From positions 18,575-82,574 of the forward strand of contig JAPLMU010000138.1 of assembly GCA_026386795.1 (NCBI GenBank): DNA of 64,000 nucleotides, given 5' to 3'. The notes beneath the pieces were generated by a model. It had not been told where the DNA came from, made no database searches, and saw only the letters and a list, made by a program, of their open reading frames with translations. This DNA is from Planctomycetota bacterium (GTDB lineage Bacteria > Planctomycetota > Phycisphaerae > Phycisphaerales > SM1A02). Each line of letters starts with the position of its first letter. Position 1 is the first letter of the stretch. Positions 17,682-50,711 of the stretch are shown here, piece after piece. The position numbers were made by a program, and so were the translations under genes.

Positions 17682-17711
17682 CCAAATAACGATAATTCTG
17701 CGCCAAAGGCA

Positions 17712-17740: not shown

Positions 17741-17791
17741 TGCCGATCCCCCGCCGCGCCTTCAGCCGGCACTCACTGAGGAACGATCACC

Positions 17792-18070: not shown

Positions 18071-18184
18071 CTGTTTGTTCGTCGCGCCATCGCACTGAGC
18101 GTTGGTGCTTACATCCGCATCGTCCGTCGGGACCAAAGCGCCGATCGAATCGGCCTCCGCCGGACACGACACTGAGGACACCCC

Positions 18185-18574
18185 ATGCCACGTGCACGCA
18201 AGGGCGCAGCCCGAACCCAGGCTCGCCGCAAACTCCTCCGCGAAGCCCGCGGTTACTACGGAACCAAGAGCCGCCTCAAGCAGCAAGCCAAGGTCGCCAT
18301 CATGCGCGCCCTGCGCAACATGTGGCGTCACCGCCGCCTGCGCCGCCGCAACTATCGCCAACTCTGGATCACGCGCATCACTGCAGCGTGCCGGATGCGC
18401 GGTTTCAAGTACAGCCTGATGATCAACGGCCTGGCCCGCGCGGGCTGCCTGTTGAATCGCAAGATGCTCAGCGAAATCGCCATCCATGATCCAGCGACTT
18501 TCGACACGCTGGTCACCACGGCGCGCACGCACTGCTCAGTCCAGCATCACGCGAAGACCGCCAAGGCCGCGTAA
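18185..18574 (+). CDS. rplT: 50S ribosomal protein L20
   Basis: MPRARKGAARTQARRKLLREARGYYGTKSRLKQQAKVAIMRALRNMWRHRRLRRRNYRQLWITRI. Confidence 0.95.
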   Translation: MPRARKGAARTQARRKLLREARGYYGTKSRLKQQAKVAIMRALRNMWRHRRLRRRNYRQLWITRITAACRMRGFKYSLMINGLARAGCLLNRKMLSEIAIHDPATFDTLVTTARTHCSVQHHAKTAKAA

Positions 18575-18630
18575 TTGTGACGCGTGGATTCACGGCGCGC
18601 TCAGCCTGAGACAGATTGCAAGTACCAATG

Positions 18631-18666
18631 ACAACGCCCCGCATCACGCGGGGCGTTGTCCCTTTT
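18631..18666 (+). terminator. Intrinsic terminator downstream of rplT
   Basis: 12-bp perfect stem acaacgccccgc / gcggggcgttgt with 5-nt loop, followed by cccttttcc. Confidence 0.7.
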
Positions 18667-18752
18667 CCCATCACTCCGCCCCTGCCACCGGCCCGCGCAC
18701 TACCGCGGCGGGTGGCTGTGTTTCCTGACGCGCGACCCACGCGTTGCGCCAC

Positions 18753-19031
18753 TTACGCACTGATGCGCGCCGCTGCAATACTGGCGATGGCCGCCGCACG
18801 TTGATGCGCCATGGATGGCCCACCCGGCAGCGAACCAAGCACGCCGCGCAATGACGCGGCCTGCGCATTCTCTTCGCGGATGGATTCGTAGATTTCTTTG
18901 CGATGCACCGCAACGCGTGCGGGAGCATTGACGCCCAGGCGAACCTTGTCGCCACGAATATCAACAATGACGATCTCAACATCGTCACCGATCATGATGG
19001 CTTCATCGCAGTGTCGAGAGAGAACGAGCAT
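18753..19031 (-). CDS. csrA: Carbon storage regulator CsrA with C-terminal extension
   Basis: [51 protein letters not shown]. Confidence 0.95.
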
Positions 19032-19109
19032 GGTGGCCTTCCGTGGCTTGCAAGGTGGACCGACGATCCGTCGGCGGTCCGTAGTTTGTGCCGCGCTTGC
19101 GCGCGGGCT

Positions 19110-19556
19110 TCAGGCGCTTTGCGCAACCGCGGTGCCAGGCAGACGCACCAACTCATGGCGCGTGCTCCAAGTGCGATCACTCAGCACCAGTTGGATGCCG
19201 GTGCGCGATGCCGCATTCACGACAATCGGTCCCTGAAGATTGGCAGTGATGGCGCCGTCACGGCGGTTCACGATGGCAAAGATGGTGGCATCCTCGGCGC
19301 GTTCAAGGCCAAGCTCCGTCAGTTCACCGGCACGGATCGGCACGCTGTAGCCGGTCGCCCATGCGGTTGGATCGGTCACCACGAAGGCCAGTTCCGGGTC
19401 TTCAATCGACTGGAGCCAGTAGAAGACGCCGCGGTCATCGGGCTGCAAGAGCGCGAATGTGCGGAATCGGGCAAACCCAAGCAAGCCGTGTGGAAACACG
19501 AGCAGGCGACTGGGGTCGATCTCAACTTCTCCAAAGCGTGTCGTTCGGACCTTCAT
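19110..19556 (-). CDS. fliW: Flagellar assembly factor FliW
   Basis: FGEVEIDPSRLLVFPHGLLGFARFRTFALL...FYWLQSIEDPELAFVVTDP; adjacent to csrA. Confidence 0.92.
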   Translation of the reverse strand: MKVRTTRFGEVEIDPSRLLVFPHGLLGFARFRTFALLQPDDRGVFYWLQSIEDPELAFVVTDPTAWATGYSVPIRAGELTELGLERAEDATIFAIVNRRDGAITANLQGPIVVNAASRTGIQLVLSDRTWSTRHELVRLPGTAVAQSA

Positions 19557-19677
19557 GTGGAACTCCGTTCCTGGGGTGATGCGGGGCATTCCGCGGGCGA
19601 ACTCCTGTCCGCCGTTGTGCTGCTGAGATATCGGTCATGAGGTCGCCGGATCATGAGCGATCTGAGAAGATGTCCGC

Positions 19678-21888
19678 ATGACCGCCGCTTCCACCCTGCC
19701 CGAAGCCCCCCTCGACCGCCGTGCGCAGTTCGCTGCGATGGCTCTTGCGGGCGTGATTCTTGGGGGCGCGCTGCTGGCGGAGAGTGCGTTTCCTGCAAAA
19801 GTATGGTTCTCGAGCGGTGCGTGTGTGTCCGTCTTATGGATTGCGGCGGCAGCGGGATACGGTCGGGTGCTCCGCCGCGTGTTGTTCCCGCGCATGGAGG
19901 CCGGTGACCCGCGCCGAACCCCGCTGGCCATCGGACTGGGAGTGGCATTCGCACTGGCGGTGGTCAACCTGCTCGCAACGCTTGGATTCATGCCGATGCA
20001 TGCGTGGTGGCGGTTTGTCTGGTGGATCGGCATGGGGATCGGCTGGATCCTGGCCGGCTGGCCCGACTTGTCATGGCGATTTGTTGGCAGCCTGTTCCGC
20101 GTGCGCTCCATCGCGGCGGACCCTTTGCTCTGGTGTGCACTGCCGGCGATCGCTGCCTTGGCGTTGGCCACCGCGTTGCCGCCCGGACTGGCGTGGAGCA
20201 CGGAGTTTGGTGGCTACGACGCGCTTGCCTACCACCTGGAGTTACCAAAGGAGTGGTTGGCCGCGGGCGCACTGGAGCCGCTTCGGCACAACGTCTATTC
20301 CGCTTTCCCAAGTTTCATGGAAGGCGCGTACCTGCAACTCTTCTCGCTCTCTGCGAACGCCGTTCCGGCGCACGACATGGCCTTGGCGCCGCAAGCGCTG
20401 CACGCGGTGCTCGCGATCTGTGCCGCGTGGATGGTGGCAGCCACGGCCGAGGTGATTGCTGGCGGCGATCAGCGCCAGCGCGCATGGGCACGAGCGATCG
20501 GATGGTGCGGATTCCTCGGGATTCCATGGGTGATCGTCACCGGCAGCTTGGCCTACAACGAAATGGCCGTGCTTCTCATGTTGGCTGCCGCCATGCTGGC
20601 GTGGACGGCGCGCGAGCACGCTGGAGTGTGGCGCATCGGGATCGCTTTGGGTTTGCTGCTGGGCGCAGCGGTGGGTGCAAAGTTGGTCGCCGCAGGCATG
20701 GCGGTGCTGCCGTTTGCGTGCTGGGCACTGGTGACGGCACAGGCAACGAACCCCACCAGTTCCACTCGCCACGTGCGAGCGTTGGCAGCGAGCGTTGGCG
20801 CGGCCTCGCTCACCGCGCTACTAATACTGGCGCCGTGGCTCATCAGGAATCATGCAGCCACCGGATCGTGGACATTCCCGTTTCGGGTGCCGCTGATTTC
20901 ATCGGGCAATGGATGGTGGAGTGCGGAGCAAATGACACGCTTCGCGGCTGGGCACATGGCCGCTGCCGACATCGGAATCGGCGCGCGCCTGTGTGCGCTT
21001 GTCGATGCCGGATTCCTACAGGGATTCGGTGCGGCCCCCGATGCGGATCCGTGGCTGCCACAATGGAGCGTTGCGTTCTGGATCGGAAGCGTGGCGATCA
21101 TGGTGCTGATGATTGGCATGCGGCGCGTGCGACACATGCGGTCCATGGGTCTTGCGCTCGGCGCGATGCTGGTGGCGCAGTTGGTGTTCTGGATGTTTGC
21201 CACACATCTGAAGTCACGGTTCCTGCTTCCCTGCGCGGTGCCGCTGACGGTGGCAACCGCGGTGGCGGCGGCGCCAGTACTGGCACAACAGACGCGCGGA
21301 ATCATTGTTGCACTCAGCGTGTTACTACTGACGGCGTGGTCACTGCAACCAAGCCTATTAATGCGGATCGATCCGCGCACGGCCAACGCGGTGGAACTGT
21401 GCGCTTCCGGCCGGACCGTGGCAACGAATGTTGATGGTCAGGGAATGGTGCGGGAAATTGCCAACGACCTTGGCCCGGGTACCGCAGCATTGGCGCAGGA
21501 ATCAGCCACGCTCGGCGATGCCATGCCGCTCGCGTGGATCGCCAACTGGCAATTGCCACCCGGCGCGGTGCTGGGCAGCGAAGGCGATGCCGATGTGTTC
21601 TGGTGCCGCACCGCGCCAGTCACCGCAACCGTGTGGGATGGCGGTCCGTTGGCGCGTGTCTTGCGCGCGCATCCATACGACCCACTCGCCGCCGTCCGCG
21701 CGCTCAGCACCGATGAACACCTGACGCACATTGCAATCGGTGAATCCATGCTGGCACGTTGGAAGGCGTCCGGTTGGATCGACCCCATCCTGACGCCAGA
21801 TCGCGTGCGGGCGGTGGCGGCGCTCCTCAACCCAGTGGCGCACACCGCTTCTGGCGGCGTCGTCTACAAGGTGCCGCTCGCCCACTGA
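19678..21888 (+). CDS. Polytopic membrane protein, glycosyltransferase-39-like
   Basis: Multiple TM helices; periplasmic-loop motif EFGGYDALAYHLELPKEWLAAG resembling GT-C mannosyltransferase-like proteins. Confidence 0.6.
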   Translation: MTAASTLPEAPLDRRAQFAAMALAGVILGGALLAESAFPAKVWFSSGACVSVLWIAAAAGYGRVLRRVLFPRMEAGDPRRTPLAIGLGVAFALAVVNLLATLGFMPMHAWWRFVWWIGMGIGWILAGWPDLSWRFVGSLFRVRSIAADPLLWCALPAIAALALATALPPGLAWSTEFGGYDALAYHLELPKEWLAAGALEPLRHNVYSAFPSFMEGAYLQLFSLSANAVPAHDMALAPQALHAVLAICAAWMVAATAEVIAGGDQRQRAWARAIGWCGFLGIPWVIVTGSLAYNEMAVLLMLAAAMLAWTAREHAGVWRIGIALGLLLGAAVGAKLVAAGMAVLPFACWALVTAQATNPTSSTRHVRALAASVGAASLTALLILAPWLIRNHAATGSWTFPFRVPLISSGNGWWSAEQMTRFAAGHMAAADIGIGARLCALVDAGFLQGFGAAPDADPWLPQWSVAFWIGSVAIMVLMIGMRRVRHMRSMGLALGAMLVAQLVFWMFATHLKSRFLLPCAVPLTVATAVAAAPVLAQQTRGIIVALSVLLLTAWSLQPSLLMRIDPRTANAVELCASGRTVATNVDGQGMVREIANDLGPGTAALAQESATLGDAMPLAWIANWQLPPGAVLGSEGDADVFWCRTAPVTATVWDGGPLARVLRAHPYDPLAAVRALSTDEHLTHIAIGESMLARWKASGWIDPILTPDRVRAVAALLNPVAHTASGGVVYKVPLAH

Positions 21889-34558: not shown

Positions 34559-36262
34559 TCATGGATGCACGAAATCAACCGTGCTACCGGCGGTCACCGG
34601 GTACTTGACCTCGGTGTAGGGAGCGAATCCAGCCGGCCCCTTTGTGATCGGCCAACGCACCTCCAATTGCAGGTCCTTCCACGACTCTGGGACTCCGAAC
34701 TGCACTTCCGTAGAGGCGGTACTTTGAAACGGTCCGCCGGCCCAAATCCATCGCTTCGCTAAGACAAGAGGTATAGGGGTTCGTGTTGAAAGCTCCACCC
34801 ATGCGCCGATTCCGTGGCTCGTGCTGGATGTTGGCCCGTGCAAGCGCACCTTGATCCAATCATTGGCGCGGTCGTGCATATTGCGCAAGACCCGCAATGG
34901 ACCGTTCAACTCCGCCACCACAATGTCCACATCACCATCGTTGTCAAGATCATTGAAGAGCGCAGTGCGGTCACGATGCGCGCCGCTCAATCCCGGGCCC
35001 GGATCAGCGACTACTTCGAAGCGAGCCCCGGCGCGGCGCATCACAAGCGGTGGCTGTTCATAATCAGAGTCCATGGCCACCTTGGTCGCCTGCGGATAGA
35101 CATGGCCGTTGAAGACCACCACATCCTCGGCACCATCGTGATCAAGATCATCGAATGATGTGGCCCAACCAAGAAGCGGGCGGCTTGGAGCGCCCAAGCC
35201 AAACTGCGCGGTGCGATCGTCAAAGAACTTGCCGTCCAAGTTCAGGTGCAGCGTGTTTGTGTCACTCGAGAAATTAGTGGTGAACACATCAGGAAGCCCG
35301 TTGCCATCCACATCACCGATCGCGATGCCCATGGTGGCCTGCCCCGCGCCGTCAATGTTGGTTGCAATGCCAGAGGCCATCCCGCGCTCTTCAAATCGCA
35401 AAGACCCACCTGGCTCCGTGCGATTCATAAAGAGCGTATTTGGCTCGGAATCATTGGCGACGAAGATATCGAGCCGCCCATCAGCATCGAAATCAACGAC
35501 CGCAAGATTCAATCCATAGCCCGGAATCGCCTTGTGAATGCCGGCTGAGTCGCTGACATCGCGGAATGTTCCGTCGCCGCGATTCTCATAGAGGATGTCG
35601 GCGCGCGCCGGCAGACCACGCGGACCCGCCATCACCTGCATGCCCTTGAATGATGCTGGCGGCGGCGGCTTCGACTGATCGAAGTCTAAGTAGTTCACCA
35701 CGAAGAGATCCAAATCTCCGTCCATGTCGAGGTCAGCGAATCCAGCGCTTGTGGACCAACCGGGATCACCAAGCCCCGCTTTCGCAGTGACATCTTCGAA
35801 TCGACCGCCGCCCATGTTCTTGAGAAGAATGTCGGGACCGTAGCAACATATGTAGATGTCATCGCGACCATCGCCATCGTAATCACCGACTGCGCATCCG
35901 AACGCCCAACGCGTTGGCCGCGCACCCATACGCTCAGTGATGTCGCGAAACTTCAGACCGCCAAGATTCTCAAAGAGTCGGGCACCCGGGCCGTGTTCTG
36001 GATCAGCAAGGGTCGCGCCATTGGGCATGAAGATGTCCATGTCGCCATCGCCATCAAAGTCGATGAGGGCTAATCCGCCGCCCTTTACCTCAACAATCTG
36101 CGTCGACGGAAGCTTTCCGCTGGTCATGATTGCATCGATACCACTGCCCGCGGTGGCGTCTTCAAATCGAATGGGCGCAGGCGGCGCAGGCGGAATCGCG
36201 TAGGCGTGAGCGTGCGGTACGGCAAGTAGCAACGCAACGGCAAAATTCCATGTCATCTTCAT
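34559..36262 (-). CDS. Secreted CRTAC1/ASPIC-UnbV-like FG-GAP beta-propeller protein
   Basis: Signal peptide MKMTWNFAVALLLAVPHAHA; repeated DFDGDGDMDIFMPNG type FG-GAP motifs; C-terminal degenerate ASPIC. Confidence 0.85.
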   Translation of the reverse strand: MKMTWNFAVALLLAVPHAHAYAIPPAPPAPIRFEDATAGSGIDAIMTSGKLPSTQIVEVKGGGLALIDFDGDGDMDIFMPNGATLADPEHGPGARLFENLGGLKFRDITERMGARPTRWAFGCAVGDYDGDGRDDIYICCYGPDILLKNMGGGRFEDVTAKAGLGDPGWSTSAGFADLDMDGDLDLFVVNYLDFDQSKPPPPASFKGMQVMAGPRGLPARADILYENRGDGTFRDVSDSAGIHKAIPGYGLNLAVVDFDADGRLDIFVANDSEPNTLFMNRTEPGGSLRFEERGMASGIATNIDGAGQATMGIAIGDVDGNGLPDVFTTNFSSDTNTLHLNLDGKFFDDRTAQFGLGAPSRPLLGWATSFDDLDHDGAEDVVVFNGHVYPQATKVAMDSDYEQPPLVMRRAGARFEVVADPGPGLSGAHRDRTALFNDLDNDGDVDIVVAELNGPLRVLRNMHDRANDWIKVRLHGPTSSTSHGIGAWVELSTRTPIPLVLAKRWIWAGGPFQSTASTEVQFGVPESWKDLQLEVRWPITKGPAGFAPYTEVKYPVTAGSTVDFVHP

Positions 36263-37110
36263 GGTGATGGCTTCTCTGTTTCAGTACGCGCCTTGATTGC
36301 AGCTTGACGTGCGCGAGCGTTGGCGGCATCTTCGGGGCGACCAAGGCGATCAAGAACGCGCGCCAACTTTGACCACGCCTCCCCGTGCTGTTCAAAGAGT
36401 TCCACCGCGCGTCGGTAGCACTGCTCTGCTTCCGGCAACTGATCTTGGCGAAGAAGTACATCTCCGAGGCGAGCCAGATTCTTGGCGCGTTCGCGCGCCG
36501 CACCCTGCTGCTCACCAAGTAGTTCGAGCGCTCGACGAAAGTATGCCTCTGATTCAACTAAGCGGTCTTCTTCGTACGCAATCAGGCCGAGCGCAAACTG
36601 CGTGTCGTCATACGTTGGAAATGCGGTGGCATGCGTTGTGAATGCAACGCGCGCACCAGCGAGGTCCCCCAAGTAGTAGCGACACCAGCCCAAGTAATGC
36701 ACTGCGTGCGGCGCCTCTGGAAACGAATCAGCAGGCGCGGCAGTTGCGCGTTCCAAATAGGCCAGCGCCTCGCCGTGCCGCTTCTCTTTGTGCAACGCGA
36801 GTCCAAGGTAGAAGCCAGCCCGCACATCGCTGGGGCGGTCCTTGACCATGGCACGCGCCACCGACTCGGCCGCTGGGTACTGACCGCTGCGAAGGAGTTT
36901 GCGAACCACCTCCCAACGCGGATCGACGGGGGCCGGGGATCGGATGGTTTCAGGACTCGCCGGGACTCCCGATGCTGCCCGCCCCACCTCCCGGGGCGCC
37001 TGAATCGCCAAATGTGCGCCCGCAGCGTGAGAAACCTCAAAAAAGGTGGCTTCAACACAGATGATGAGTCCGCCGAGCGCCGCTGACCATTGAGCACGCA
37101 ACTCCCGCAT
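36259..37110 (-). CDS. TPR-repeat protein
   Basis: Helical repeats such as GFYLGLALHKEKRHGEALAYLERA and LGDVLLRQDQLPEAEQCYRRAVELF. Confidence 0.82.
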   Translation of the reverse strand: MRELRAQWSAALGGLIICVEATFFEVSHAAGAHLAIQAPREVGRAASGVPASPETIRSPAPVDPRWEVVRKLLRSGQYPAAESVARAMVKDRPSDVRAGFYLGLALHKEKRHGEALAYLERATAAPADSFPEAPHAVHYLGWCRYYLGDLAGARVAFTTHATAFPTYDDTQFALGLIAYEEDRLVESEAYFRRALELLGEQQGAARERAKNLARLGDVLLRQDQLPEAEQCYRRAVELFEQHGEAWSKLARVLDRLGRPEDAANARARQAAIKARTETEKPSP

Positions 37111-37322: not shown

Positions 37323-38996
37323 ATGAGAATTGCATACGGACCCTATTTCGCCAGCCTCGCGATCACTGCGGCGTCCTTACTTGTTCCGTGCGCACAGGCC
37401 GACACGCTTGCACTGCAGCCCCGTGCCGGCGACCCAATGCCCGGTCTCACCGCCACGCAACTTGAGCGGTTCCAACTCGGTCGAGTCCTCTATGCAACGC
37501 CGATTCCAGCCTCCGCGGGGATGGGACCAACCTTCAATAAGACCAACTGCCAGTCGTGCCACTCGAACCCGGTGGGCGGATGGGGCAACGCCAGCGTGAC
37601 CCACTTCGGTATTGTCGACAAGGGCTCGTTCAGGATGGTTCCCGGCGAAACACAAAGCCTCTTGCAAGAATTTGCCGTCAGCGAATTCTGCAGGGAGATC
37701 ATCCCGACGAGCGCCAACTTCACTGCCATCCGCATGACCAACTCCAGTATGGCCTTCGGCATGGTTGAGGCCGTTCCAGATGCAGCGATTGCACTCTTAG
37801 AAGATCCCAACGACGCGAACGGCGATGGAATATCTGGACGCATCCACTGGGTTCGACCACTTGAGGAAACCAATGGCAACAGTCCGTTGCGTGCTGGGCG
37901 CTTTGGTTGGAAGGCTCAAATTGCCACCGTTCTCAGTTTCTCCGGTGACGCCACTCGCAACGAGATGGGCATCACGAACCGCCTGATGATGGTTGAGAAC
38001 GCGCCGAACGGTGACACCGCCCGCCTTGCGCAGTGCGACCCAATGCCCGAGCCAGAAGATGTGAGCGACCAACAAGGATTCGCGTTCATTGATCGAGTCA
38101 CTCATTTCCAGCGGTATTTGGCGGTTCCCCCGCAGACTCCAAAGTCGGGAATGACTGGCGAGACAGTCTTCATCAATGTCGGCTGCGCCAAGTGCCATGT
38201 TCCAGAGTGGACAACTGCGAACACTCCGGGCCTTGAAGACGCCATTCGAAATAAGGTCATTCGACCCTATACCGATTTCATGCTCCATGACATGGGCTTG
38301 CAAGGCGATGGTGTTGCCGACGGATACGCATCCGAAACAGAACTGCGCACGCCAACTCTTTGGAACCTGCGCACCCGTGATCCCATGCTCCACAACGGCG
38401 TTGCTGCTGGCGGGCTGTTCTCCGATCGCGTGCGGGCGGCCATCGCACTGCACGGTCCATACGGCGAAGGTGCCGGAAGCGCCGACGCATTCGCGCAGTT
38501 GTCTGAACCAAACAAGGTGCTGCTCGTTTCATTCCTCAACTCGCTTGGGCGCGTGGAGTTTGACGACAACGGCGATGGTCACGTCGACATCATCGATTTC
38601 ATTGCCTTCAAGGCCGCGCTCGGCTCGAACAGCACACCGAACACGCCCAACGCTGTGCACGACATCAATCAGGACGGGACCATTTCGATGGCCGACTTTG
38701 CTTACTTCATGCAGGCCTACGAAGGTCCGAATGGTGATTGCAACGGCAACGGCGTGGCGGACCTCATCGACCTCTTGCAGGGAACCAGCGTTGATACCGA
38801 TCACAACGGTCTGCCTGACGAGTGCCTGCCCTGCCCGGCAGACCTCACTGGCGACCATGTTGTCAATGGCGCCGACCTCGGGCTATTGCTTGGAAGTTGG
38901 GGTCAATCCGATGTTCCAGCTGACCTGAACGCAGACGGCGCGGTCGGTGGAGCCGACCTTGGAATTCTGCTTGGAGCATGGGGCGCTTGTCCCTAA
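37323..38996 (+). CDS. Di-heme oxidoreductase-like c-type cytochrome with C-terminal dockerin-type repeats
   Basis: Signal peptide; CQSCH and CAKCH heme motifs; [18 protein letters not shown]...[24 protein letters not shown]. Confidence 0.85.
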
Positions 38997-39101
38997 CCCT
39001 AAGTTGCATACTGAAGTAGCCGAATTTGCATTGCCACTGACTGAGTAGAGTTTGAATACGCCACGAGTGACCGCTTCTTGCTACCGACCTTTAAGGACCC
39101 C

Positions 39102-41648
39102 ATGCGACTTTATACGCGTCCACAAACGATCCTCGCCATCACCTCCGCGCTCGCGCTGACTGGCGCAGTTGCTGCACAGAACTGGGTGAACCTTTCTAAT
39201 CAGACCAGCACTCGTCTGGTGGCCGCTGCATCACTCATCGGAGCGGACAATCTAGAGAAGGACTTTGCGTGGGGCGACCTTGACCGCGATGGCGACATTG
39301 ATTTGGTCTGCGTCCGCAAGTTCCCTGGCAGTATTCAGGGTGGCGCGCGCAACCTGCTCCTTATGAATGAAGGCGGCATTCTGACTGATCGGACCGCGGA
39401 GTACGGACAGGCCAGCGACATCAGTGGCTACGCGGGGCTCTTGGATCCCACCAATGATCGCGATGTGGAAGTGGTGGACATCAATAACGATGGCTGGCTC
39501 GACATTCTCACCGCCACCACCATGAGCGACAATGTCAACAGCGTTCTTGGACAGCCACGCGCTTACATCAACCTCGGTAACGATGCCTCTGGCCATTGGC
39601 TCGGCTTTCGCTTTGAGGTTGATCGCATTCCCACCCTCTTCGCGCGCGGCGGCGCAGCGGCCAACCCGCGCTTCTGCGACATGGCGGTTGCCGACTACAA
39701 CGGCGACGGCTACGTGGACATCTTCTATACCGACTACGACACTCCGGAAACCTCTGGCACCCTGTGCTACGACCTGAACGGAGATGGCGATACGCTCGAT
39801 GCCGGTGAGTGTCAGCAAAGCCCGGCGGAAAATCCTGCGAACGATTACGACAACAAACTGCTCCTTAATTTCGGTGCTGCGAATCCGGGCGTCTTCTACG
39901 ACGCCACTACCACCGTCCTCAGTGCCGCACAGATCAACTCCGGGTTTGGAAACATGGCCGTTGCTGGGGATTTCAACGGCGATGGACGCCAGGACATCGT
40001 CCGCATCAACACACTCACGAGCGGTCAGGCTGTCAGCGTTTACACCAAGAATGCCACCGGCTCGGGGTTCGCACTGAAAGACATCGCCACTGGCCAGCCC
40101 TACCACGGCGACAAGGCCGACCTCAACGGCGACGGACGACTCGATTTGGTAATCGTTGATGACGGTCAAGACAAGTACCTGATCAACACTGGTAATGATG
40201 CCACCGGGCAACCGAATTTCACCAGTTACACCATTGCGGACAGTCTCAGTGAGTTCGGCAACAGCACACAGGTTGGCGACCTTGACAAAGACGGTCGACC
40301 TGATGCCATCATCACCGATGTTGACGCCGACCTTGGACCATTCTGCCCGCAGACCACTGGCGCTGCGCACTCGCGTCGGACACACATCTACCGCAACATC
40401 TACAGCGGATCGCCTTCCGGGATTCTGCATGAACTCACGCCGCTCGTCATCCCAGCGTCTGAACTTGATTGGTGGACGGATGTGGCGATCTTTGACATCA
40501 ACGGCGATACCTGGCCGGATCTTGTTGCAGGAACCTGCACCGGTCTTGTCGTCTACATGAATGTTCCACCAATGAACATCACGTTCGCCTACCCGGACGG
40601 CCTGCCCACAACGGCAGCACCAGGCATGGCGAAGTCCTTCCGAGTGCAGGAAGCTGTTGCTGGCGGAACGGTGATTGCGAACTCCACGCGGCTTATGTGG
40701 TCAGTGGATGGCGGTGCGTTCCAATCCGCGGTTCTACCCTCGGTGGGAACGAACCTGTTCCAGGCAACGCTGCCTGCTTTCCAGTGCGGCCAAAGCGTCC
40801 GCTACTACGTGACGGCAACGATCGACAGCGGGATCACCTTTAGTGACCCAACAACCGCACCGGCGCAAACTGATGGCCTCTCCGTGGAGAGCGGCAATAC
40901 AACTCCCTATTCCAATGACATGGAAGCGATCACATCGGACTGGACCGTGATCAATGAGGGCGGACTCACCACCGGCGGCTGGGAAGTTGCGACCCCGATC
41001 GGAACAACGAGCGGCATCTACGCCTCGGCTCCCGCGAGTGATGCGAGCACTATTGGAACCAAGGCATGGGTGACGCAGAACGGTCTTGCTGGTGGTGCTT
41101 CTACCACCGCCGATGTTGATACCGGCACCACTCGACTGCTGAGCCCGGTGTTCGACTTGTCGACAGCCATCAATGCCAACGTCACCTACTCGCGCTGGTA
41201 CTTCTGCAGCGATGCACCGCCAGCTGGGTCAACGCCCGCTGAAGTGGACACTCTGTTTGCAGAGATCAGTGCCGACGGCGGAACAACATGGCTGCGACTT
41301 GAGAACGTCTCCACTTACCCAACCCCCAATGCTTGGACTCGAGTGAATTTCTCACTCCGCGGCATCGTGCCGGCGCTGACTTCAACGATGCGCTTCCGCT
41401 TCTCGATTTCCGATTCACCGGACAACTCAACCACCGAAGCTGGTATTGATGATTTCTCAATTTCCGCAGTGGTTTGCGTCAATCCGTGCATGGGCGACCT
41501 TGATGGCAACCACGTGGTCAATGGCGCAGACCTAGGCATGCTGCTCGCTGGTTGGGGCGCCGGCGGAATCGGTGACCTTGATGGCAACGGCGCGATTAAC
41601 GGCGCGGATCTAGGACTACTGCTTGCCGCATGGGGAGCATGCCCGTAA
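39102..41648 (+). CDS. Secreted FG-GAP repeat protein with C-terminal dockerin-type repeats
   Basis: Signal peptide; GDLDRDGDIDLVCV, DYNGDGYVDIFYTD repeats; C-terminal [22 protein letters not shown]...[25 protein letters not shown]. Confidence 0.85.
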   Translation: MRLYTRPQTILAITSALALTGAVAAQNWVNLSNQTSTRLVAAASLIGADNLEKDFAWGDLDRDGDIDLVCVRKFPGSIQGGARNLLLMNEGGILTDRTAEYGQASDISGYAGLLDPTNDRDVEVVDINNDGWLDILTATTMSDNVNSVLGQPRAYINLGNDASGHWLGFRFEVDRIPTLFARGGAAANPRFCDMAVADYNGDGYVDIFYTDYDTPETSGTLCYDLNGDGDTLDAGECQQSPAENPANDYDNKLLLNFGAANPGVFYDATTTVLSAAQINSGFGNMAVAGDFNGDGRQDIVRINTLTSGQAVSVYTKNATGSGFALKDIATGQPYHGDKADLNGDGRLDLVIVDDGQDKYLINTGNDATGQPNFTSYTIADSLSEFGNSTQVGDLDKDGRPDAIITDVDADLGPFCPQTTGAAHSRRTHIYRNIYSGSPSGILHELTPLVIPASELDWWTDVAIFDINGDTWPDLVAGTCTGLVVYMNVPPMNITFAYPDGLPTTAAPGMAKSFRVQEAVAGGTVIANSTRLMWSVDGGAFQSAVLPSVGTNLFQATLPAFQCGQSVRYYVTATIDSGITFSDPTTAPAQTDGLSVESGNTTPYSNDMEAITSDWTVINEGGLTTGGWEVATPIGTTSGIYASAPASDASTIGTKAWVTQNGLAGGASTTADVDTGTTRLLSPVFDLSTAINANVTYSRWYFCSDAPPAGSTPAEVDTLFAEISADGGTTWLRLENVSTYPTPNAWTRVNFSLRGIVPALTSTMRFRFSISDSPDNSTTEAGIDDFSISAVVCVNPCMGDLDGNHVVNGADLGMLLAGWGAGGIGDLDGNGAINGADLGLLLAAWGACP

Positions 41649-41718: not shown

Positions 41719-43605
41719 TCACCGCGAAATGATGGTGCGCGAGCCTTCATCAGCGCGCCGAATCATGGTGGTGGTCTGTTGCCCATCCGGCCACCGTATT
41801 TCGCATGCAGTGATGTGCGCTTCGCCAATTCCAAAGTAAACCCGCGGCGGTACCTGCGAGAGGTATGACCGTGTTGGCATCACCGTGCGCCGCAGCGTGA
41901 GACCGTTGTCAAGCCGAAGCGTCACCTGCGCACCGATCGCATCGCGATTGCCCGCGTGGAGCGAGTCCACGAGCACGCATTCGATATGCCCGCCCTGCTT
42001 CGTTGCATTGCGGACCACGAGCGGTGCGCCGCTGACTGCACCGATGACGATGTCAAGAGCGCCGTCGTTATCCAAGTCCCCCCAGGCGAGACCGCGACCA
42101 ACGACTGGTGTCGCCAGGGCGCCGAGTAACGCACTGGGAACTTCGGCAAATGTTGCGCCGGATTGACCCGCGCGGTTCCAGAACACCTGCGCCGCCTGCG
42201 TATAGCGCTGCGTCGGCTGAACATCCGCGATGCGCTCCTCAATATGACCGTTTGCAAGGACGAGGTCTTCCCAACCATCGGAATTTAAGTCGACAAAGGC
42301 AACGCCGAAGGTGAGTGCCCGACGGGTTGCAGCGGAAATGCCGTCGACAATTGCATCATCGGCAAATCGACCGTCTCCTGCGGTGACATACAGACTGCAT
42401 GGCTCGTTGGCGAAGTTTCCTACAGCGATCGCGAGTGCGGCATCGTTCCGAAGGTGCGCCGCATCACAACCCATCGCTCCAGTCGCCGCACCGTTGCGAT
42501 CGAATGCAACTCCCGCCGATACGCCGCGCTCTTCAAAGAGGCCGTGGCCGTCATTGATAAACAGAAAGTTCTGCACTGAGTCATTCGCAACAAAGAGATC
42601 CAAATCACCGTCGCCGTCGCAGTCGTCAATCACGAAACCGAGCGCCTTCGCCATCGGTTGACTCGTTGAACGATTGCGCACGCGAAGTCCGTGCTCGACG
42701 GTGCGATCAGCAAAGTGCATCGGGCTGACTTGCTCCATGACGACAAGATCTGTGCCTGCAAATCCAGTCGGCGCGCCGTATGCGCGGCCAAGACCGGTGA
42801 GTGTGTAGTTGACGTTCAAATCAAGCTCTTTGGACCACTCAACGTAACGACCGAGTACGAGGTCAAGATCGCCGTCCTGATCAAAGTCAGCGAATCCGGC
42901 CGCGGTGGTCCATCCGTTGAGAGCGGCAAACCCAGCTTCCGTAGTGGCATCGCGCCACCGCGTTACCGTGCCGGGCGCGGAGTGCTCCGCCACGAAGAAT
43001 CGCACTCCACCAACGCCGGTTGCCAGGATTTCAGGGCGACCATCGCCATCAAGATCGGCGAGCGCGATACCCATGCCTTGCCATGGCTGCTCCAGTCCGG
43101 TGTTGAGCGCGCGGACGAAGCCGGGACCAGCGCTCGCTGTCTGCAGTTGATTCAGAAAGACCGCAATCCCCTGACCGCGCTGCGACCCGGCAGCGGCGCC
43201 GGGCCAGGCGTCGCCATCCGGAATGATGACGTCTAAGTCGCCGTCGCCATCCACATCCCAGATCGCCACCCCGCCGCCCATGGTTTCCGGAAGAAGGCGC
43301 TCGCCCGCCGCACCTGTGACGCGCTGAAAGTCGATCCCCCAACCGTCGCTCGACGCGCCGGAACGATCCTGGAAGGCGAGCGCGGCCGCGGCGGTGGAAC
43401 CGAGCGTCGGCGCAAGCACGGCGGGACCAACAGGAAGAGGAGCCACCGGCGGCGCGGGCAGAACGGCGCGTGACCAGTGCCGCCATACCACAACCCCCGC
43501 AGTAACGACCCCAACCACTGCGATCGACGCCCAGAATGCCAGACCAATGATGCGGTCATCCGGTGGCAGCTCTGCTGAACCATCGCCGCCTAGCGGAGCC
43601 GTCAT
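41719..43605 (-). CDS. Membrane-anchored CRTAC1/ASPIC-UnbV beta-propeller protein
   Basis: N-terminal TM; FG-GAP repeats; C-terminal NRDAIGAQVTLRLDNG...YFGIGEAHITACEIRWPDGQ ASPIC motif. Confidence 0.88.
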   Translation of the reverse strand: MTAPLGGDGSAELPPDDRIIGLAFWASIAVVGVVTAGVVVWRHWSRAVLPAPPVAPLPVGPAVLAPTLGSTAAAALAFQDRSGASSDGWGIDFQRVTGAAGERLLPETMGGGVAIWDVDGDGDLDVIIPDGDAWPGAAAGSQRGQGIAVFLNQLQTASAGPGFVRALNTGLEQPWQGMGIALADLDGDGRPEILATGVGGVRFFVAEHSAPGTVTRWRDATTEAGFAALNGWTTAAGFADFDQDGDLDLVLGRYVEWSKELDLNVNYTLTGLGRAYGAPTGFAGTDLVVMEQVSPMHFADRTVEHGLRVRNRSTSQPMAKALGFVIDDCDGDGDLDLFVANDSVQNFLFINDGHGLFEERGVSAGVAFDRNGAATGAMGCDAAHLRNDAALAIAVGNFANEPCSLYVTAGDGRFADDAIVDGISAATRRALTFGVAFVDLNSDGWEDLVLANGHIEERIADVQPTQRYTQAAQVFWNRAGQSGATFAEVPSALLGALATPVVGRGLAWGDLDNDGALDIVIGAVSGAPLVVRNATKQGGHIECVLVDSLHAGNRDAIGAQVTLRLDNGLTLRRTVMPTRSYLSQVPPRVYFGIGEAHITACEIRWPDGQQTTTMIRRADEGSRTIISR

Positions 43606-46538
43606 CGCGCGGCCTTCGCTGCGGGGGCGGGCGACGGCGCGGGACGATCGGTGCCGCGTTCAATGGGAGCAGGCACCCCTGCCGAAATGCCAGGCGCCCC
43701 AGATCGCTGCAAGTCGTACACCGCGGCGGGTTCCGCGGCATGATTCGCCGCCGCATCACGGGCTCGGGCCAGATTCACGGCGCGGTCACGCGCGTTGTCA
43801 TCCGGGCGATAGCGCTCGTACGCGGTACGCGCCTCAGCCGCACGTTCAGTGTCGCCGCTTGCTTCGAACGCCTGCATGCGGATGTACCACGATTGAAATC
43901 GCTGCGAGTCAAGTGCAAGTGCTCGATCAGTCAGAGCGATCGCTTCCGCATACAGCGCAGCGCGCCGACTGGCATCGCTCGGCTCGCGCAACTGACGAGC
44001 GCGCTCAAGGCATGCACTCGCCGAGTCTGTGAGCACACGATCATCACGCGAGAAATCAAAGCCGCGCGCGTGCGCCTCGGTGAACGCCGTTGCGGAGACT
44101 GTGCGGAATCCTTCGATGGCGCGGTCGTACTGACCCTGCTGCATATCAACGACGGCACTCCAATAAGCAACCGACCACGGCAACTCACCCGGGTGTTTCT
44201 CTGCCGCGGTCCGCAGGTATGAAGCCGCTTCGTCAAGTCGGCCATCGCGCAAGGCGACGCGCGCCCTGCCGAGCCAACCTTCCACGTGCCCCGCCGCTGC
44301 TACTTCTGCGAAGGCCTCATCCGCTTGCGCCCACTGCCCCTTTCCGGCCGCGCGGTCTGCCACACGAAAGCGCGCAATTCCAGCATCAAACCAGCGTTCC
44401 CAAGCAGGAATCGGCGGAGAGGCTGCGGGAGCGGCCGGCATGACGGGCGCAGCGACCGCCGACACCGCGCCGACGGAATCAAAAACAACTCGATCCGTTG
44501 CGAGCGTCATGACCGGCAGATTGTTGCTGAAGTCGGCGCCGTAAACATAGCGCATGTACTTCGTATCAAACTTTCGATAGCGAACGGCGGCATCAACCGT
44601 GATTGGACCGCGCACATCCGCAGGCACCGTGAATGCATAGCGCGTGAGGTCTGCGGCTCCAGGTGGAATCTGCTGGTTGTAGAGCGGCACAAAAATATCC
44701 TGCGGGTTGCGGCGGTCAATGCGATTGCCATCACGGTCAAGCATGTAGACGTTAAAGAACTTGCTCCACGGATCCACACTGTTGCCACCGTCGCCCGCGT
44801 TGCTTCCACTACCACTCATCGCGCCAGAGCGAGCAATCACTCGATCGCCCGCGCACACCGTGACATCAAGCCATATTTCGTTGCTGTCCACTGTTCCTTG
44901 CGTGTACTCATGGCCGAGCGCGCCGAGCGTACGCACGATCACTTCCAACAGGTAGCGTTTACCGGCAAGCAGTGACGGCGCGGAATCACCAAGAAGCGGC
45001 GTGATCGCCCCGTCAGGGTTTCCATCAGCACGCAACGCAAAGATGTCCAGACGCAACACGCCGCGATTGAATGCCTCGGTGGTCGCCCGAGCGCCCTCCG
45101 GATCCGGAAGACCGCTCAGCGCGGGAGTTGCGGTATTTGCACCTACAAACAGGTGATCTCGCAAGCGCAACTCTCCGTCGGGGCCGCGCGGCTTGGCGCC
45201 GAGATCCGTGCTTGCCACTTCGGGCATATGACAGCCGTTGCAGTTGGCGGCGGGCTCCTTGGGCCAGTACCAACCTTGAACACCGTGACCGCTGCGATTC
45301 GAAAGCCGCCACGAGTCATAGTGATTCTGCCCCGGCATCCACTTGTAGTCATTCAGCTCCTCTGGCAGGAACACTTTGTGACAGGTGCTACAAAATTCTG
45401 CGCTGCGATGCACCGAAGGCTTGAGAAATGTTTGCTTGTGAAACGCCGGCTTCGCTTTCACCAGCTGCCGATTCGTCCATGCCAACAGTGGCGAGTCGCT
45501 TCCCGCGAACGGGTACTGCGGACTCTCTTCAATAATGTAATCAGCGTTGCCACGCGTTGAATTGACCGCAACAATCGAATGGCACGAGGTGCAAGTGATG
45601 CTTGCCGCACCCATCGGATCCTTGGAAACGTCGTAATGCGGATCATCGAATCGAGCGTCCTCGAATGCGCCGCTGAAGAACGGCACGGGGTCATGACAGC
45701 CCGCACAGAAGCGCGCATCATTCACTGAACCCTCGCGCTCAAAGGCACGACGCCGCGTTTCACGCACGCTGAACGCGTACATCGGATTGTTGAAACTGCT
45801 AGCGGCATGCGCACTGTGCGCCCACGATCGGTACGCATCGGGGTGGCAAGAAATGCAATAATCGTTCTGAGAAAGTGAAGATTCCGGGATGAACGCACCG
45901 TTCGCGGTACGCGCCAAACTTGGCTCGTAGTACGCCGCGCCATCCTTTGGAGTTGGTCGCGGACGCGAGGCATCGAAGCGGTGCCACACATCAAATCCAC
46001 CCACCATGAGAAGTGATGCTGCGGCAACCGCGAATCCAGTGCGCCATCGAATACGACGACCAGCGAGGCGATGCAACACGAATCCCCACACCACTACCAG
46101 CGGCGCTGCAATGTGCATCCAATACGCGCCGCTCCGTACGCCGGGCTCACGAAGCTCCGCGACTACGCCGGCAACATCCACGCGCGTCAGGATGATTCCC
46201 GTTGCAAGCGTGATGATTGCTGCAATGAATGTGACGTTCCCCATGCGGACCGCGCGCCGGTTGGGATGGTTATGCGAGCGCTTCCAGTGCCACGCGCCGA
46301 ACGCGATCGCCGGCAGCGTGATAGCGAGCCCGAGCACCAAGTGGCCAAGGAACATCCATAGATAGAAAGAATTCTGTCGCTGCTCGCTGGTGATCCACTC
46401 CGTGAGCGTCACGCCACCGAGATAAACGGAATTGATGGCGAGGAGCGCAAAGAGCACCAGCGTCGCAAGCAAGAGCGTGCGCATGCGCGGCGTGACAACA
46501 CCGCCGGGCGGAATGAGTCTGGGGCGAGGTTCAGCCAT
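43602..46538 (-). CDS. Membrane-anchored pentaheme c-type cytochrome with TPR C-terminus
   Basis: N-terminal His-containing TM bundle; five CxxCH: CISCH, CAGCH, CTSCH, CSTCH, CNGCH; C-terminal TPR-like helices. Confidence 0.85.
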   Translation of the reverse strand: MAEPRPRLIPPGGVVTPRMRTLLLATLVLFALLAINSVYLGGVTLTEWITSEQRQNSFYLWMFLGHLVLGLAITLPAIAFGAWHWKRSHNHPNRRAVRMGNVTFIAAIITLATGIILTRVDVAGVVAELREPGVRSGAYWMHIAAPLVVVWGFVLHRLAGRRIRWRTGFAVAAASLLMVGGFDVWHRFDASRPRPTPKDGAAYYEPSLARTANGAFIPESSLSQNDYCISCHPDAYRSWAHSAHAASSFNNPMYAFSVRETRRRAFEREGSVNDARFCAGCHDPVPFFSGAFEDARFDDPHYDVSKDPMGAASITCTSCHSIVAVNSTRGNADYIIEESPQYPFAGSDSPLLAWTNRQLVKAKPAFHKQTFLKPSVHRSAEFCSTCHKVFLPEELNDYKWMPGQNHYDSWRLSNRSGHGVQGWYWPKEPAANCNGCHMPEVASTDLGAKPRGPDGELRLRDHLFVGANTATPALSGLPDPEGARATTEAFNRGVLRLDIFALRADGNPDGAITPLLGDSAPSLLAGKRYLLEVIVRTLGALGHEYTQGTVDSNEIWLDVTVCAGDRVIARSGAMSGSGSNAGDGGNSVDPWSKFFNVYMLDRDGNRIDRRNPQDIFVPLYNQQIPPGAADLTRYAFTVPADVRGPITVDAAVRYRKFDTKYMRYVYGADFSNNLPVMTLATDRVVFDSVGAVSAVAAPVMPAAPAASPPIPAWERWFDAGIARFRVADRAAGKGQWAQADEAFAEVAAAGHVEGWLGRARVALRDGRLDEAASYLRTAAEKHPGELPWSVAYWSAVVDMQQGQYDRAIEGFRTVSATAFTEAHARGFDFSRDDRVLTDSASACLERARQLREPSDASRRAALYAEAIALTDRALALDSQRFQSWYIRMQAFEASGDTERAAEARTAYERYRPDDNARDRAVNLARARDAAANHAAEPAAVYDLQRSGAPGISAGVPAPIERGTDRPAPSPAPAAKAAR

Positions 46539-46682
46539 GCAAAGGAGCGAGTCTGGGAGCAGCGAGAAGGTTTCGCCGTCAGCGCGATGATCGAGGCGAG
46601 GAAGGCACCGCCAGCACAGCGTGCCGCGTATCCCTGCAGTCTAGGCGTGGAGAACCGGGCGTTCGAGCCTGAAATGGATGCT

Positions 46683-49600
46683 TCAGCGACCGCCGGCCCA
46701 ACGCACATTGAACTGCGCGTGCAGGGCATCGCGGGCGGGCGTGGTGCCCTTTCCATCACGGAGCGGAAGCGGACCGAGCGTGGCGCCGTCGCCGGTGAGC
46801 ATGTCCATGTCCTTGCACCAACCGTCAACTTCAAGCACCCACGTACGGCTTACCCCCGGCGCTGGATTCGGGGTGCGAGCGGCATCGAAGCGCAATTGCA
46901 CTTCCTCGCCGGCGGCAAAGATGGCCACTGCATCGTCGGTAGCGGCAAGGAGTGGAGTGCACTCGCCAAACTGCGTGTACATACCGGGCTGCTTGCGGCA
47001 ATCCCAAAGCGGAGCGCGGCGCGCATAGTCGTAATCGGGTCGCCGTTGCGGATGCGGAATACGAGCAGCGAAGCCAGCGTCGACCACGGCTGCAGAGAGA
47101 AGCGGAGCTTCAATGCGCCGCGCTTGCGCGCATGGCTCAAACCACGCGAGCTCAACTTTATCGACGTAGATCTCCATCGTGGTACGCAAGCGAAGCGCCG
47201 TGCATCCTGGCGGCAATGCGCTGCGTGGCACCGGGAATACTGCGCGGCGCGGCATACCAGCTGGGTAGCCATACTCCGCAACCACGGTCTTCCATGCACC
47301 CGTCGCCGGGTCGCGCGCCTCCATGGAAAGCGCTTGATACGCAGCGGATGCCTGCCACATGGCGAATCCGGTGGATGAATACGGATACTCAACCCAACCG
47401 TCAACAAGGAGAGCCGGATCACCAGGGTGTGCATCGAGCGCATCTGCAAACTCGAGCGTAAGAACCGCTTCCTTACCAAGGCGCCCAATGAAGCGCGGAT
47501 CCGCTTCGCCAAAGTGAGCGGCCACACCGTCACGCTCTGCAATTGCTTTCGCCTGGTTTGATTCAGCCGCCCCGCCGACAGCAACCGTTGCGCGCACGGG
47601 CTGGGCGGCCGTCCGGAAGAAGCACGCATCGCCGGTGGGCGGTGCTCCGTTGATTCCCATGCGTTCGTCAAGCGTTACCTGCCAACCAGCTGGGACATCC
47701 CAGGCAACCAATCGCGCGGCGTCCAAGTAGCACGCCTCCTCCATCGGCTCCGCAAGACGAATCTGGTACGCGCCGTCCTTTGCAGCGAGCGCGTCACTGC
47801 CGCCGAGCGCCACGCGTTCCCATGGTCGCGACGGGGGGTAAACAGCGCGCAGCGAACCGTCGGAAGAACGCTCAATTCCTGCCAAATATCCGATACCACC
47901 GACGCCCAAGCAGTCGGTGACAAAGGCATGCGTGTGCCCATTCCAAGCAAAGATCACTGGGCAACTGGAAATCTGCCGCTGCGTCTCAACGATGGTTCGC
48001 GAGCCGGCAGCAATACCCAACTCCGTCTGGGTAACCGCGTCCGGCCAATCGATGGCCACAAAGTCTGCTCGCTCTGCATCTCCAAGTCCAACTGCAATCG
48101 GTTCGAGCGCCTGCGAGTTGCCGCCGCCGCGCGCAGGCAGCGCGTCGCGCGCCACCCACTCGCCTGCGATACGTGCATCCATGCGCGTTCCAATCCCGCT
48201 TGAATTGCTGCGCATCTGCTGCGATGGATCGATGCGACCACGGAACGAGAGCGCCGCGTAGGACCATCGTCCACTACCCGGCGCCATCCAACGCGCCGGA
48301 CCACCTGCCGCCACAGCAGGTGCCACGGCAACGGGACCGCGCGCGTCAATCGTTGCAAACTCCGCACCGGCTGGCACGCCAGTCATGCGTTCAAGTAGAC
48401 CGCCGTGCGCGTCAAGAATGGCGAGCGCAGCACTTGCTGGCGCGGGTATCACCGGAATTGGGCTCGTAGGAATCGGGCTGATGGGGGCGTCATTCTCAAG
48501 CACCACGATGTTCGGATGCCCACTTCCGGAAAGATCCGTCACCCAGAGGGCGCTGGCATTGGTAACCGGAGTGCGCGGACCAGCGGTCCACTTTCCTGCG
48601 GACGATTCCCAAAGTTGCATCGCGTCATGGGTACCGCCACCGGAGCCGCCAACAAGTGTGGCGATTGCAGCGTGGCCGTCTTCATTACGCCGGAAGGCAA
48701 CCACAGCGCCGGGACCCGATGATTCGAATGCCCCCAAATTCGGCTCACGCGACCACGCCCACAGGCGGTCGTTACTCCACGCCTGCGCTGCGGATCCACC
48801 GGCAGACCAAAGTAGAAGATCAAGATCACCATCGTTATCAAGATCCGCGGCAGTGGCATGGGCGGATGACAGCGCTCCAGGAATCAGTCGTCGCTCCCAT
48901 GCGATGGGCTCCACCGCGCCCGCTCGACCAAGGTTCCATAGCACTCCGGTTCCGGTTGCATTGGTGAACACTAAGTCCAAGTCGCCGTCATGATCGAGAT
49001 CCGCGCACAATGCAATGTCATCGCCGGGTTCAGTCACGCCTGCGAATGTCCAACCGCGCCAAATACCAGATGCCGTCTGCTGCGCCCATCCAACCCACAT
49101 CCCGCCACCAATGATTCGCGTCGCGGCATCAACGCGGCCAAAGACCACATCGGTTCGTCCGTCGTTGTCAAGATCGCCCCAGAATTGCCGGCCGCGGCGG
49201 AATGCATCAGTGGTGAATTGATCCATCTTCCAGCGACCATCCGCTGTGCTGTGCACGAGCCGTCGCTCGACGCGTGACTCTTCAACGAAATCGATTTGTG
49301 CCACGAAATCAAGGGTCCCGTCGCCATCAAGATCAGCAGCCGGCAGCAATGCCACCACTATTCCAGGCGCGGGCGGCACTCCATCAATGGGCATGGCTTC
49401 CAAATTCGCCAAGATCGGACCGGAGTGGCGAGCCAGTTCGCGCGGCGCGGATTCGGGAAGTACCGCCTCGCCAAGCGAACCCATGCGCGTGTACTTGAAC
49501 TCCGCAAGATGGCTGCGCGGATTGTCAGCAAGGCGCTGGAAGGTCTCGAGCGCGGCTGCAGACTCCGCGGTATGTCCGAGCCGACCCTGCACGCGCTGCA

Positions 49601-50213
49601 GTCCAAGAAGCGCGCTGCGCAGGTATGGGTCAAGCTCAGCGGCGCGCGCGTAAAAACCACGCGCTGCCTCGAGTTCACCTTGAAGTTCACTGCACTGCCC
49701 TGCGTAGAAGTGCGCATACGGATCAACGCTTTCGCGGTCGGATGCACGCCGAAAGCGCGGCAGTGCATGGCTTGGATCACCAAGAAAGAGGTAACCGAGC
49801 GCCTGGCAGTACTCGGCACGTGTGTCGCTGGGACGATCGTGCAAGATGCCATCCAGTAACGCGATTGCTCGCGTCTGTGACCCATCGTCGCTCTGATTGA
49901 GAACGGCAATCGCATGATCGAGGCGGGCCTCGTACAAGGTCGGACGCGACTGCAGTACGCCCGCAAATGTTGCTTCCGCCGCAGCGAATTCGAACATCCC
50001 GAGCTCGCCGACGCCGCGATCAAGTGCTGCGATAGTTGCCGCATCAAGCGGAAGTGTGGACGCAGGTTGAGGCGGCGAGGCCTGCGGCGACTGCGATGAA
50101 GCCTGCGGCGACTGCGATGAAGGCTGCGGGGGCTTCGCAGAATCATCGCAACCCGGCAACAGCAACGCGCCAACGATGGCCACTGACAACGACCATCCGA
50201 AGACAGCGCACAT
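46683..50213 (-). CDS. Large lipoprotein: TPR + FG-GAP propeller + conserved C-terminal domain
   Basis: Lipobox VGALLLPGC; TPR repeats; DLDGDGTLDFV, DLDNDGRTDVVF, DLDHDGDLDLVF; C-terminal HTHAFVTDCLGVGGIGYLAGI. Confidence 0.82.
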   Translation of the reverse strand: MCAVFGWSLSVAIVGALLLPGCDDSAKPPQPSSQSPQASSQSPQASPPQPASTLPLDAATIAALDRGVGELGMFEFAAAEATFAGVLQSRPTLYEARLDHAIAVLNQSDDGSQTRAIALLDGILHDRPSDTRAEYCQALGYLFLGDPSHALPRFRRASDRESVDPYAHFYAGQCSELQGELEAARGFYARAAELDPYLRSALLGLQRVQGRLGHTAESAAALETFQRLADNPRSHLAEFKYTRMGSLGEAVLPESAPRELARHSGPILANLEAMPIDGVPPAPGIVVALLPAADLDGDGTLDFVAQIDFVEESRVERRLVHSTADGRWKMDQFTTDAFRRGRQFWGDLDNDGRTDVVFGRVDAATRIIGGGMWVGWAQQTASGIWRGWTFAGVTEPGDDIALCADLDHDGDLDLVFTNATGTGVLWNLGRAGAVEPIAWERRLIPGALSSAHATAADLDNDGDLDLLLWSAGGSAAQAWSNDRLWAWSREPNLGAFESSGPGAVVAFRRNEDGHAAIATLVGGSGGGTHDAMQLWESSAGKWTAGPRTPVTNASALWVTDLSGSGHPNIVVLENDAPISPIPTSPIPVIPAPASAALAILDAHGGLLERMTGVPAGAEFATIDARGPVAVAPAVAAGGPARWMAPGSGRWSYAALSFRGRIDPSQQMRSNSSGIGTRMDARIAGEWVARDALPARGGGNSQALEPIAVGLGDAERADFVAIDWPDAVTQTELGIAAGSRTIVETQRQISSCPVIFAWNGHTHAFVTDCLGVGGIGYLAGIERSSDGSLRAVYPPSRPWERVALGGSDALAAKDGAYQIRLAEPMEEACYLDAARLVAWDVPAGWQVTLDERMGINGAPPTGDACFFRTAAQPVRATVAVGGAAESNQAKAIAERDGVAAHFGEADPRFIGRLGKEAVLTLEFADALDAHPGDPALLVDGWVEYPYSSTGFAMWQASAAYQALSMEARDPATGAWKTVVAEYGYPAGMPRRAVFPVPRSALPPGCTALRLRTTMEIYVDKVELAWFEPCAQARRIEAPLLSAAVVDAGFAARIPHPQRRPDYDYARRAPLWDCRKQPGMYTQFGECTPLLAATDDAVAIFAAGEEVQLRFDAARTPNPAPGVSRTWVLEVDGWCKDMDMLTGDGATLGPLPLRDGKGTTPARDALHAQFNVRWAGGR

Positions 50214-50218
50214 CCGGC

Positions 50219-50617
50219 TCAGTGCGGGATTTCCTTGACGGCATTCCTATTCCATGCCGGAACGCGAATGATGATCGGACCAGTGCCGCGAATCTCGCAC
50301 TGGCAACTCAGTCGGCTTGTTCGCTTGATGCCCGGGGCTTCCTCAACGCGATCTTCTTCCGCCTCGGTGGCGTCGGTCAACGATGCCATGCCCTGCTCAA
50401 CATAGATATGGCAAGTGCTGCAAGCGCAGACCCCACCGCAGGCGTGTTCAATGTTGATGCCGTGCTCCATGGCCAGTTCCAAGACCGACTCATGCTCGCC
50501 GCCCATGAGCGTCCATTCAGATTGCTTGGTGCCAGTCAACATCTCCGGCTCCTCCAAAATGAAGGTCACTGGAACAATTGGCGGCCCATGCTCATGATCG
50601 GAATGCTTGAGATGCAT
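50219..50617 (-). CDS. 2Fe-2S ferredoxin (adrenodoxin/Isc type)
   Basis: IEHACGGVCACSTCHIYVEQGM...RLSCQCEI. Confidence 0.9.
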   Translation of the reverse strand: MHLKHSDHEHGPPIVPVTFILEEPEMLTGTKQSEWTLMGGEHESVLELAMEHGINIEHACGGVCACSTCHIYVEQGMASLTDATEAEEDRVEEAPGIKRTSRLSCQCEIRGTGPIIIRVPAWNRNAVKEIPH

Positions 50618-50675
50618 CAGAGGCGGGATTGTAGTGGAGCTGCGCCGCTGCGCGAATAAATGAGAGGGTTTGCTG

Positions 50676-50711
50676 CAAAAACACAAGTCCCGCGCCGGAG
50701 CGCGGGACTTG
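50676..50711 (-). terminator. Intrinsic terminator downstream of the 50764..51648 gene
   Basis: Minus strand: 12-bp perfect stem CAAGTCCCGCGC-TCCG-GCGCGGGACTTG followed by TGTTTTTGC. Confidence 0.85.

Follow-up and report, generated by a model that had tools for sequence, protein, structure and literature searches.

A conserved cytochrome-ASPIC operon in Planctomycetota that likely encodes a quinone-linked b/pentaheme-c electron-transfer protein

We analysed a 64,000-nucleotide stretch of a Planctomycetota genome (referred to as the window), in which three minus-strand genes encode a multiheme membrane cytochrome and two propeller proteins. The cytochrome, CYT978, belongs to a conserved operon and likely exchanges electrons with quinone. 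With moderate confidence, we favour the reading that the cluster encodes an inner-membrane, quinone-linked diheme-b/pentaheme-c redox complex that faces the periplasm. The first gene encodes LIPO1176 (46683-50213; 1176 aa), a predicted lipoprotein with TPRs, an FG-GAP propeller, a weak ASPIC domain and a C-terminal part without a recognised domain. It is followed by CYT978 (43602-46538; 978 aa), which combines a diheme-b-like membrane domain with a pentaheme c domain, a beta domain and TPRs, and by ASPIC628 (41719-43605; 628 aa), which has an N-terminal transmembrane (TM) anchor, an FG-GAP beta-propeller with calcium-type motifs and an ASPIC/UnbV domain. The initial annotation had described three closely spaced genes on this strand, and the ORFs were confirmed: LIPO1176 and CYT978 are separated by 144 bp (rather than 145), and the ATGA at the end of CYT978 is the start of ASPIC628, a 4-bp overlap. 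Pfam searches identified FG-GAP and ASPIC/UnbV in ASPIC628, Cytochrome_C554 and TPR in CYT978, and TPR, FG-GAP and the weak ASPIC in LIPO1176, with all TPR, FG-GAP and ASPIC matches above their cut-offs. A 2Fe-2S ferredoxin gene (50219-50686, minus strand) lies 5 bp upstream of LIPO1176. It is possibly the first gene of the LIPO1176 transcript, and a functional link to the cluster is doubtful. Just upstream of the ferredoxin gene, a strong terminator-like hairpin (50684-50711; 12 pairs, T-rich tail) could delimit a ferredoxin-LIPO-CYT-ASPIC transcript on its upstream side. Elsewhere in the window (16575-21888), four sizeable ORFs (368, 256, 245 and 736 aa) have no Pfam match at an E-value of 0.001.

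The membrane domain occupies residues 1-200 of CYT978 (45939-46538, minus strand). The structure prediction that the initial annotation had proposed gave a confident AlphaFold model of the whole protein (pLDDT 88.5, pTM 0.86). This model contains five TM helices, with H66 and H84 on TM2 and H142 and H156 on TM4, the two helices facing each other. All four histidines are invariant in an alignment of 47 homologs, down to 26% identity; three of them (H66, H142 and H156) come from the histidine-bearing stretches that had first drawn attention to this TM bundle, and H84 joins them. Two stacked b hemes with bis-His ligation would be expected to have their ligands placed in this way across the membrane; heme b is predicted here. 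The histidines of TM2 are spaced by 18 residues, whereas bc1-type cytochrome b has a narrower spacing of 13-14. Sequence searches with the TM domain found no match to solved structures. DUF4405 matches three members of the 47-sequence alignment; its matches also fall on the N-terminal region of genuine cytochrome b proteins that are encoded next to the paralogs described below. As the loops after TM2 and TM4 are rich in arginine, the sequence fits a topology with the N-terminus in the cytoplasm and the C-terminal part in the periplasm.

The next domain, residues 205-470 (45129-45926, minus strand), contains five CxxCH motifs, at residues 228, 278, 316, 383 and 433. All five heme-c motifs are found in every row of the alignment, again down to 26% identity, and their spacing is near-constant in full-length orthologs (mostly 50/38/66-67/50). 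The description of five heme motifs followed by TPR helices thus holds for CYT978 and for its full-length orthologs. Variant motifs occur at single hemes: CX4CH replaces CxxCH at heme 1 in a group of paralogs (L020-L025) and at heme 5 in L074, and CX3CH is found at heme 5 in L069. Cytochrome_C554 (PF13435) scores 30.6 bits in CYT978 against a cut-off of 20.8 and is also found in 46 of the 47 homologs, whereas a match to an MtrC/MtrF domain falls below its Pfam cut-off. A Foldseek search with the full model was dominated by TPR matches, so we predicted the structure of residues 1-690 on their own and searched with that model. This fragment matched the pentaheme cytochrome c552 of Thermochromatium tepidum (5ze8; E-value 5.6e-11, probability 1.00, TM-score 0.61 by target) across both the c domain and the following beta/Ig-like domain (residues 490-690; 44469-45071, minus strand), which contains an invariant GH (H543). 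By sequence, the c domain matched c552 at 2e-8 and MccSep at 2e-4. The comparison with c554, HAO and MtrA-like folds that the initial annotation had suggested was therefore borne out in part: Cytochrome_C554 is present, but neither HAO nor MtrA appeared among the sequence matches or the best 50 fold matches listed, and the nearest fold is that of c552/ExtKL.

Outside the membrane part and the heme motifs, four histidines are invariant in the 47 sequences: H244, H367 and H462 in the c domain and H543 in the beta domain. A lysine after the fourth heme motif, K388, is invariant as well. As this leaves only four candidate distal histidines for five c hemes, one heme may be substrate-accessible. 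The pentaheme domain could then be a catalytic periplasmic enzyme, in which one c heme without bis-His ligation oxidises or reduces a small molecule while the b domain links it to the quinone pool. We regard this as a serious possibility that falls somewhat short of an even chance; it is a stronger version of the quinone-linked redox complex rather than its opposite. Besides the histidine count and K388, the presence of selenocysteine in the fold relatives ExtKL/MccSep suggests catalysis, and ExtKL has been linked to selenite reduction (PMC5877670). However, the fifth ligand may be a residue other than histidine or may come from a partner chain, and CYT978 has a threonine at the position that is weakly aligned with the selenocysteine of MccSep.

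The C-terminal TPR domain of CYT978 (residues 712-935; 43734-44405, minus strand) probably packs on the heme domain, since the predicted confidence of residues 395-427 falls from about 90 to about 45 once the TPRs are removed. The N-terminal TM segment of ASPIC628 is kept in nearly all homologs examined, and LIPO1176 has a lipobox-like LLPGC, with a similar one in most of its homologs. No heme motifs were found in the sequences of ASPIC628 or LIPO1176. The cytochrome had been described as flanked by two calcium-binding-type propellers; the FG-GAP propellers were confirmed, but both proteins also carry an ASPIC domain. FG-GAP repeats and PF07593 score over the cut-off in ASPIC628, in LIPO1176 and in ASPIC567 (34559-36262, minus strand), and these three ASPIC domains, all within the locus, are the only ones in the genome. 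The large C-terminal part of LIPO1176 (residues about 740-1176; 46683-47996) has no Pfam match, and it is to this part that the matches reaching other families of the class were found.

The cluster is part of a larger block in its own family. The initial annotation had correctly placed a di-heme oxidoreductase nearby, but the conserved block takes in both 34559-37110 and 37323-41648. It consists of seven genes: LIPO1176, CYT978 and ASPIC628, then PROP856 and DHOR557 on the opposite strand, then TPR283 (36259-37110, minus strand), a TPR protein that is the conserved partner of ASPIC567, and ASPIC567 itself. DHOR557 (37323-38996, plus strand) is an exported di-heme oxidoreductase (PF06537) with a C-terminal GC-type dockerin (NF041540), and PROP856 (39078-41648, plus strand), an exported FG-GAP propeller, ends in a similar, dockerin-like sequence, which suggests a common export or anchoring tail. 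One genus (L083) has a rearranged block, in which LIPO is preceded by PROP and part of DHOR. In four deeper members of the family (L032, L044, L085 and L089), a conserved gene of 330-340 aa lies directly upstream of the lipoprotein; read by eye, it resembles a nitrilase-family hydrolase.

Next, we consider how widely these genes occur and whether they occur together. Within the class, 18 of 198 genomes contain the cytochrome. Across the phylum, an alignment that reaches TPR-less paralogs, which the count includes, placed the cytochrome family in 123 of 392 genomes, about a third. A second collection yielded 23 loci, nearly all from sequences titled as planctomycete MAGs apart from a few generic or evidently mislabelled titles; sample names suggest that several are from lake water. 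Throughout the Planctomycetota, the ASPIC propeller gene lies directly downstream of 77 of the 85 unique cytochrome genes with room downstream, often with the same 4-bp overlap. Both the operon and the heme motifs, on whose conservation the initial annotation had staked its reading, are thus conserved: the five motifs in homologs and the gene pair in relatives. Near one such pair (L082:14445-16822; G083:C75), within the same 20 kb, are a 4-heme and an 11-heme cytochrome (Paired_CXXCH). In counts that ignore shared ancestry, LIPO was found in 17 of the 18 cytochrome-positive genomes versus two of the 180 cytochrome-negative ones, including eight of the nine cytochrome-positive genomes outside its own family, mostly on other contigs. 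Counted in the same way, DHOR occurs in 16 of the 18 cytochrome-positive genomes; as nine other genomes also have it, its link to the cytochrome is weaker than that of LIPO. Close relatives in general share some of the gene order in this region, as would be seen if the genes were neighbours by inheritance only and acted separately. We consider this extremely improbable. The overlap between the cytochrome and ASPIC genes is kept phylum-wide while other neighbours change, LIPO co-occurs with the cytochrome even from another contig, and the two own-family genomes without the cytochrome have neither LIPO nor DHOR at the thresholds used.

Related proteins without TPRs form a separate branch with 26-31% identity to CYT978. 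They retain the four TM histidines and the five heme motifs, and usually an ASPIC neighbour too. At three loci (L095, L122 and L123; G154:C84, G083:C5 and G142:C38), the paralog is encoded in a run of genes on one strand; those scanned there include Rieske, cytochrome b, a 6- or 10-heme c protein and an NAD(P)/Fe-S oxidoreductase. These runs possibly encode a bc-type complex with a multiheme subunit. At another locus (L094:1577-12984; G171:C155), paralog and ASPIC gene are found beside molybdopterin oxidoreductase, Fe-S and ethylbenzene-dehydrogenase-type/cytochrome c genes. Guilt by association points to an electron-transfer role for these paralogs, and by extension we infer one for CYT978, to whose function the gene contexts of the paralogs need not apply. 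A 612-aa pentaheme protein with Cytochrome_C554 (L133:10621-12456) is encoded near a cytochrome paralog that is flanked by ASPIC genes on both sides.

The initial annotation had proposed a conduit from quinone to the cell surface. The first half of that proposal agrees with our results, as CYT978 is likely a quinone-linked b/multiheme-c membrane protein; the second half is not supported. If the cluster were a conduit for extracellular electron transfer, electrons would pass from quinone through CYT978 to the lipoprotein and propellers on the cell surface. This would account for a multiheme cytochrome and a lipoprotein in one operon and for the export of DHOR557 and PROP856 with their dockerin-type tails. 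Moreover, ExtKL, of the same fold family, is encoded in the outer-membrane conduit cluster ExtHIJKL of Geobacter (PMC6148476), so that the c552/ExtKL fold alone is compatible with a conduit role for CYT978. However, we recognised no outer-membrane porin among the genes of the locus, and ASPIC628 is anchored by a TM segment, and for these two reasons we rejected the surface-conduit reading, which we consider very unlikely. In addition, neither propeller partner carries a heme motif. A porin search limited to the MtrB/PioB family (PF11854), as distinct from ExtI-type porins, gave no match in the genome, which is 87% complete. The genome also contains an aerobic chain, with a gene cluster for an alternative complex III (ACIII) and a COX1 heme-copper oxidase.

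In the inner-membrane complex that we favour instead, the quinone pool of the membrane would exchange electrons with two b hemes of CYT978, held by H66/H142 on the periplasmic side and H84/H156 on the cytoplasmic side. The c domain, with its five hemes and c552/ExtKL fold, would continue this path. The TPR domain, ASPIC628 with its membrane anchor, and LIPO1176 may scaffold the heme domain or present a periplasmic partner, which in the own family may include DHOR557. A more specific and more tentative proposal, which we consider possible rather than probable, is a respiratory enzyme complex found across the phylum, in which the diheme-b/pentaheme-c/TPR protein has one substrate-accessible heme, an obligate ASPIC subunit and the TPR-propeller lipoprotein, and carries out a quinone-linked periplasmic reaction on a putative substrate. 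If the redox complex is real, the cytochrome and its ASPIC neighbour form a widespread module for electron transfer, one that is easily overlooked as its parts are named only generically (multiheme cytochrome, TPR, FG-GAP/ASPIC). ASPIC/UnbV propellers would also gain a concrete, testable partner.

The initial annotation had matched the cluster to no named system, and we likewise found no description of it in the literature, including in a search for ASPIC/UnbV or CRTAC1 with cytochromes that covered few subscription journals. The components belong to known families; it is their combination, a single chain with diheme-b-like, c552-type pentaheme and TPR domains accompanied by an ASPIC protein and a lipoprotein with TPRs and a propeller, that we did not find described in the searched literature. 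Like porin-cytochrome conduits (MtrCAB/Pcc/Ext), the cluster contains a multiheme c protein and a lipoprotein; unlike them, its locus has no recognised porin or multiheme outer-membrane protein, and its genome has no match to the MtrB/PioB family. CYT978 has only five heme motifs, unlike octaheme HAO with its P460 heme. The proposed complex resembles alternative complex III (ActABCDEF), which also sits in the membrane, is linked to quinol and has a multiheme c subunit, but the two have no subunit in common, and the ACIII cluster of this genome is separate. FG-GAP propellers of the CRTAC1/ASPIC type also adjoin heme-enzyme genes at hydrazine-synthase-like loci in Planctomycetota (PMC12758564), where they lie next to homologs of HZS alpha and beta-gamma rather than a b/pentaheme-c cytochrome. 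The pentaheme family to which c552 (5ze8) and ExtKL/MccSep (9wt8) belong has been discussed for cable bacteria and Geobacter (PMC11976967). CYT978 shares with it five c hemes in the family's motif order and a c domain followed by a beta domain, but also contains TPRs and a diheme-b-like domain with five TM helices, adjoins an ASPIC propeller gene and has no selenocysteine that we could see. A functional parallel may be CbcL of Geobacter, the precedent for a single-chain b and c quinone oxidoreductase (PMC9129911), whose diheme b domain lies in the membrane and is followed by a multiheme c domain in the periplasm, as predicted for CYT978. The numbers differ, with six TM helices and nine c hemes in CbcL against five of each in CYT978, which also has a beta domain, TPRs and ASPIC partners. 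The best explanation is that the cluster works like CbcL and is not itself a member of the CbcL family.
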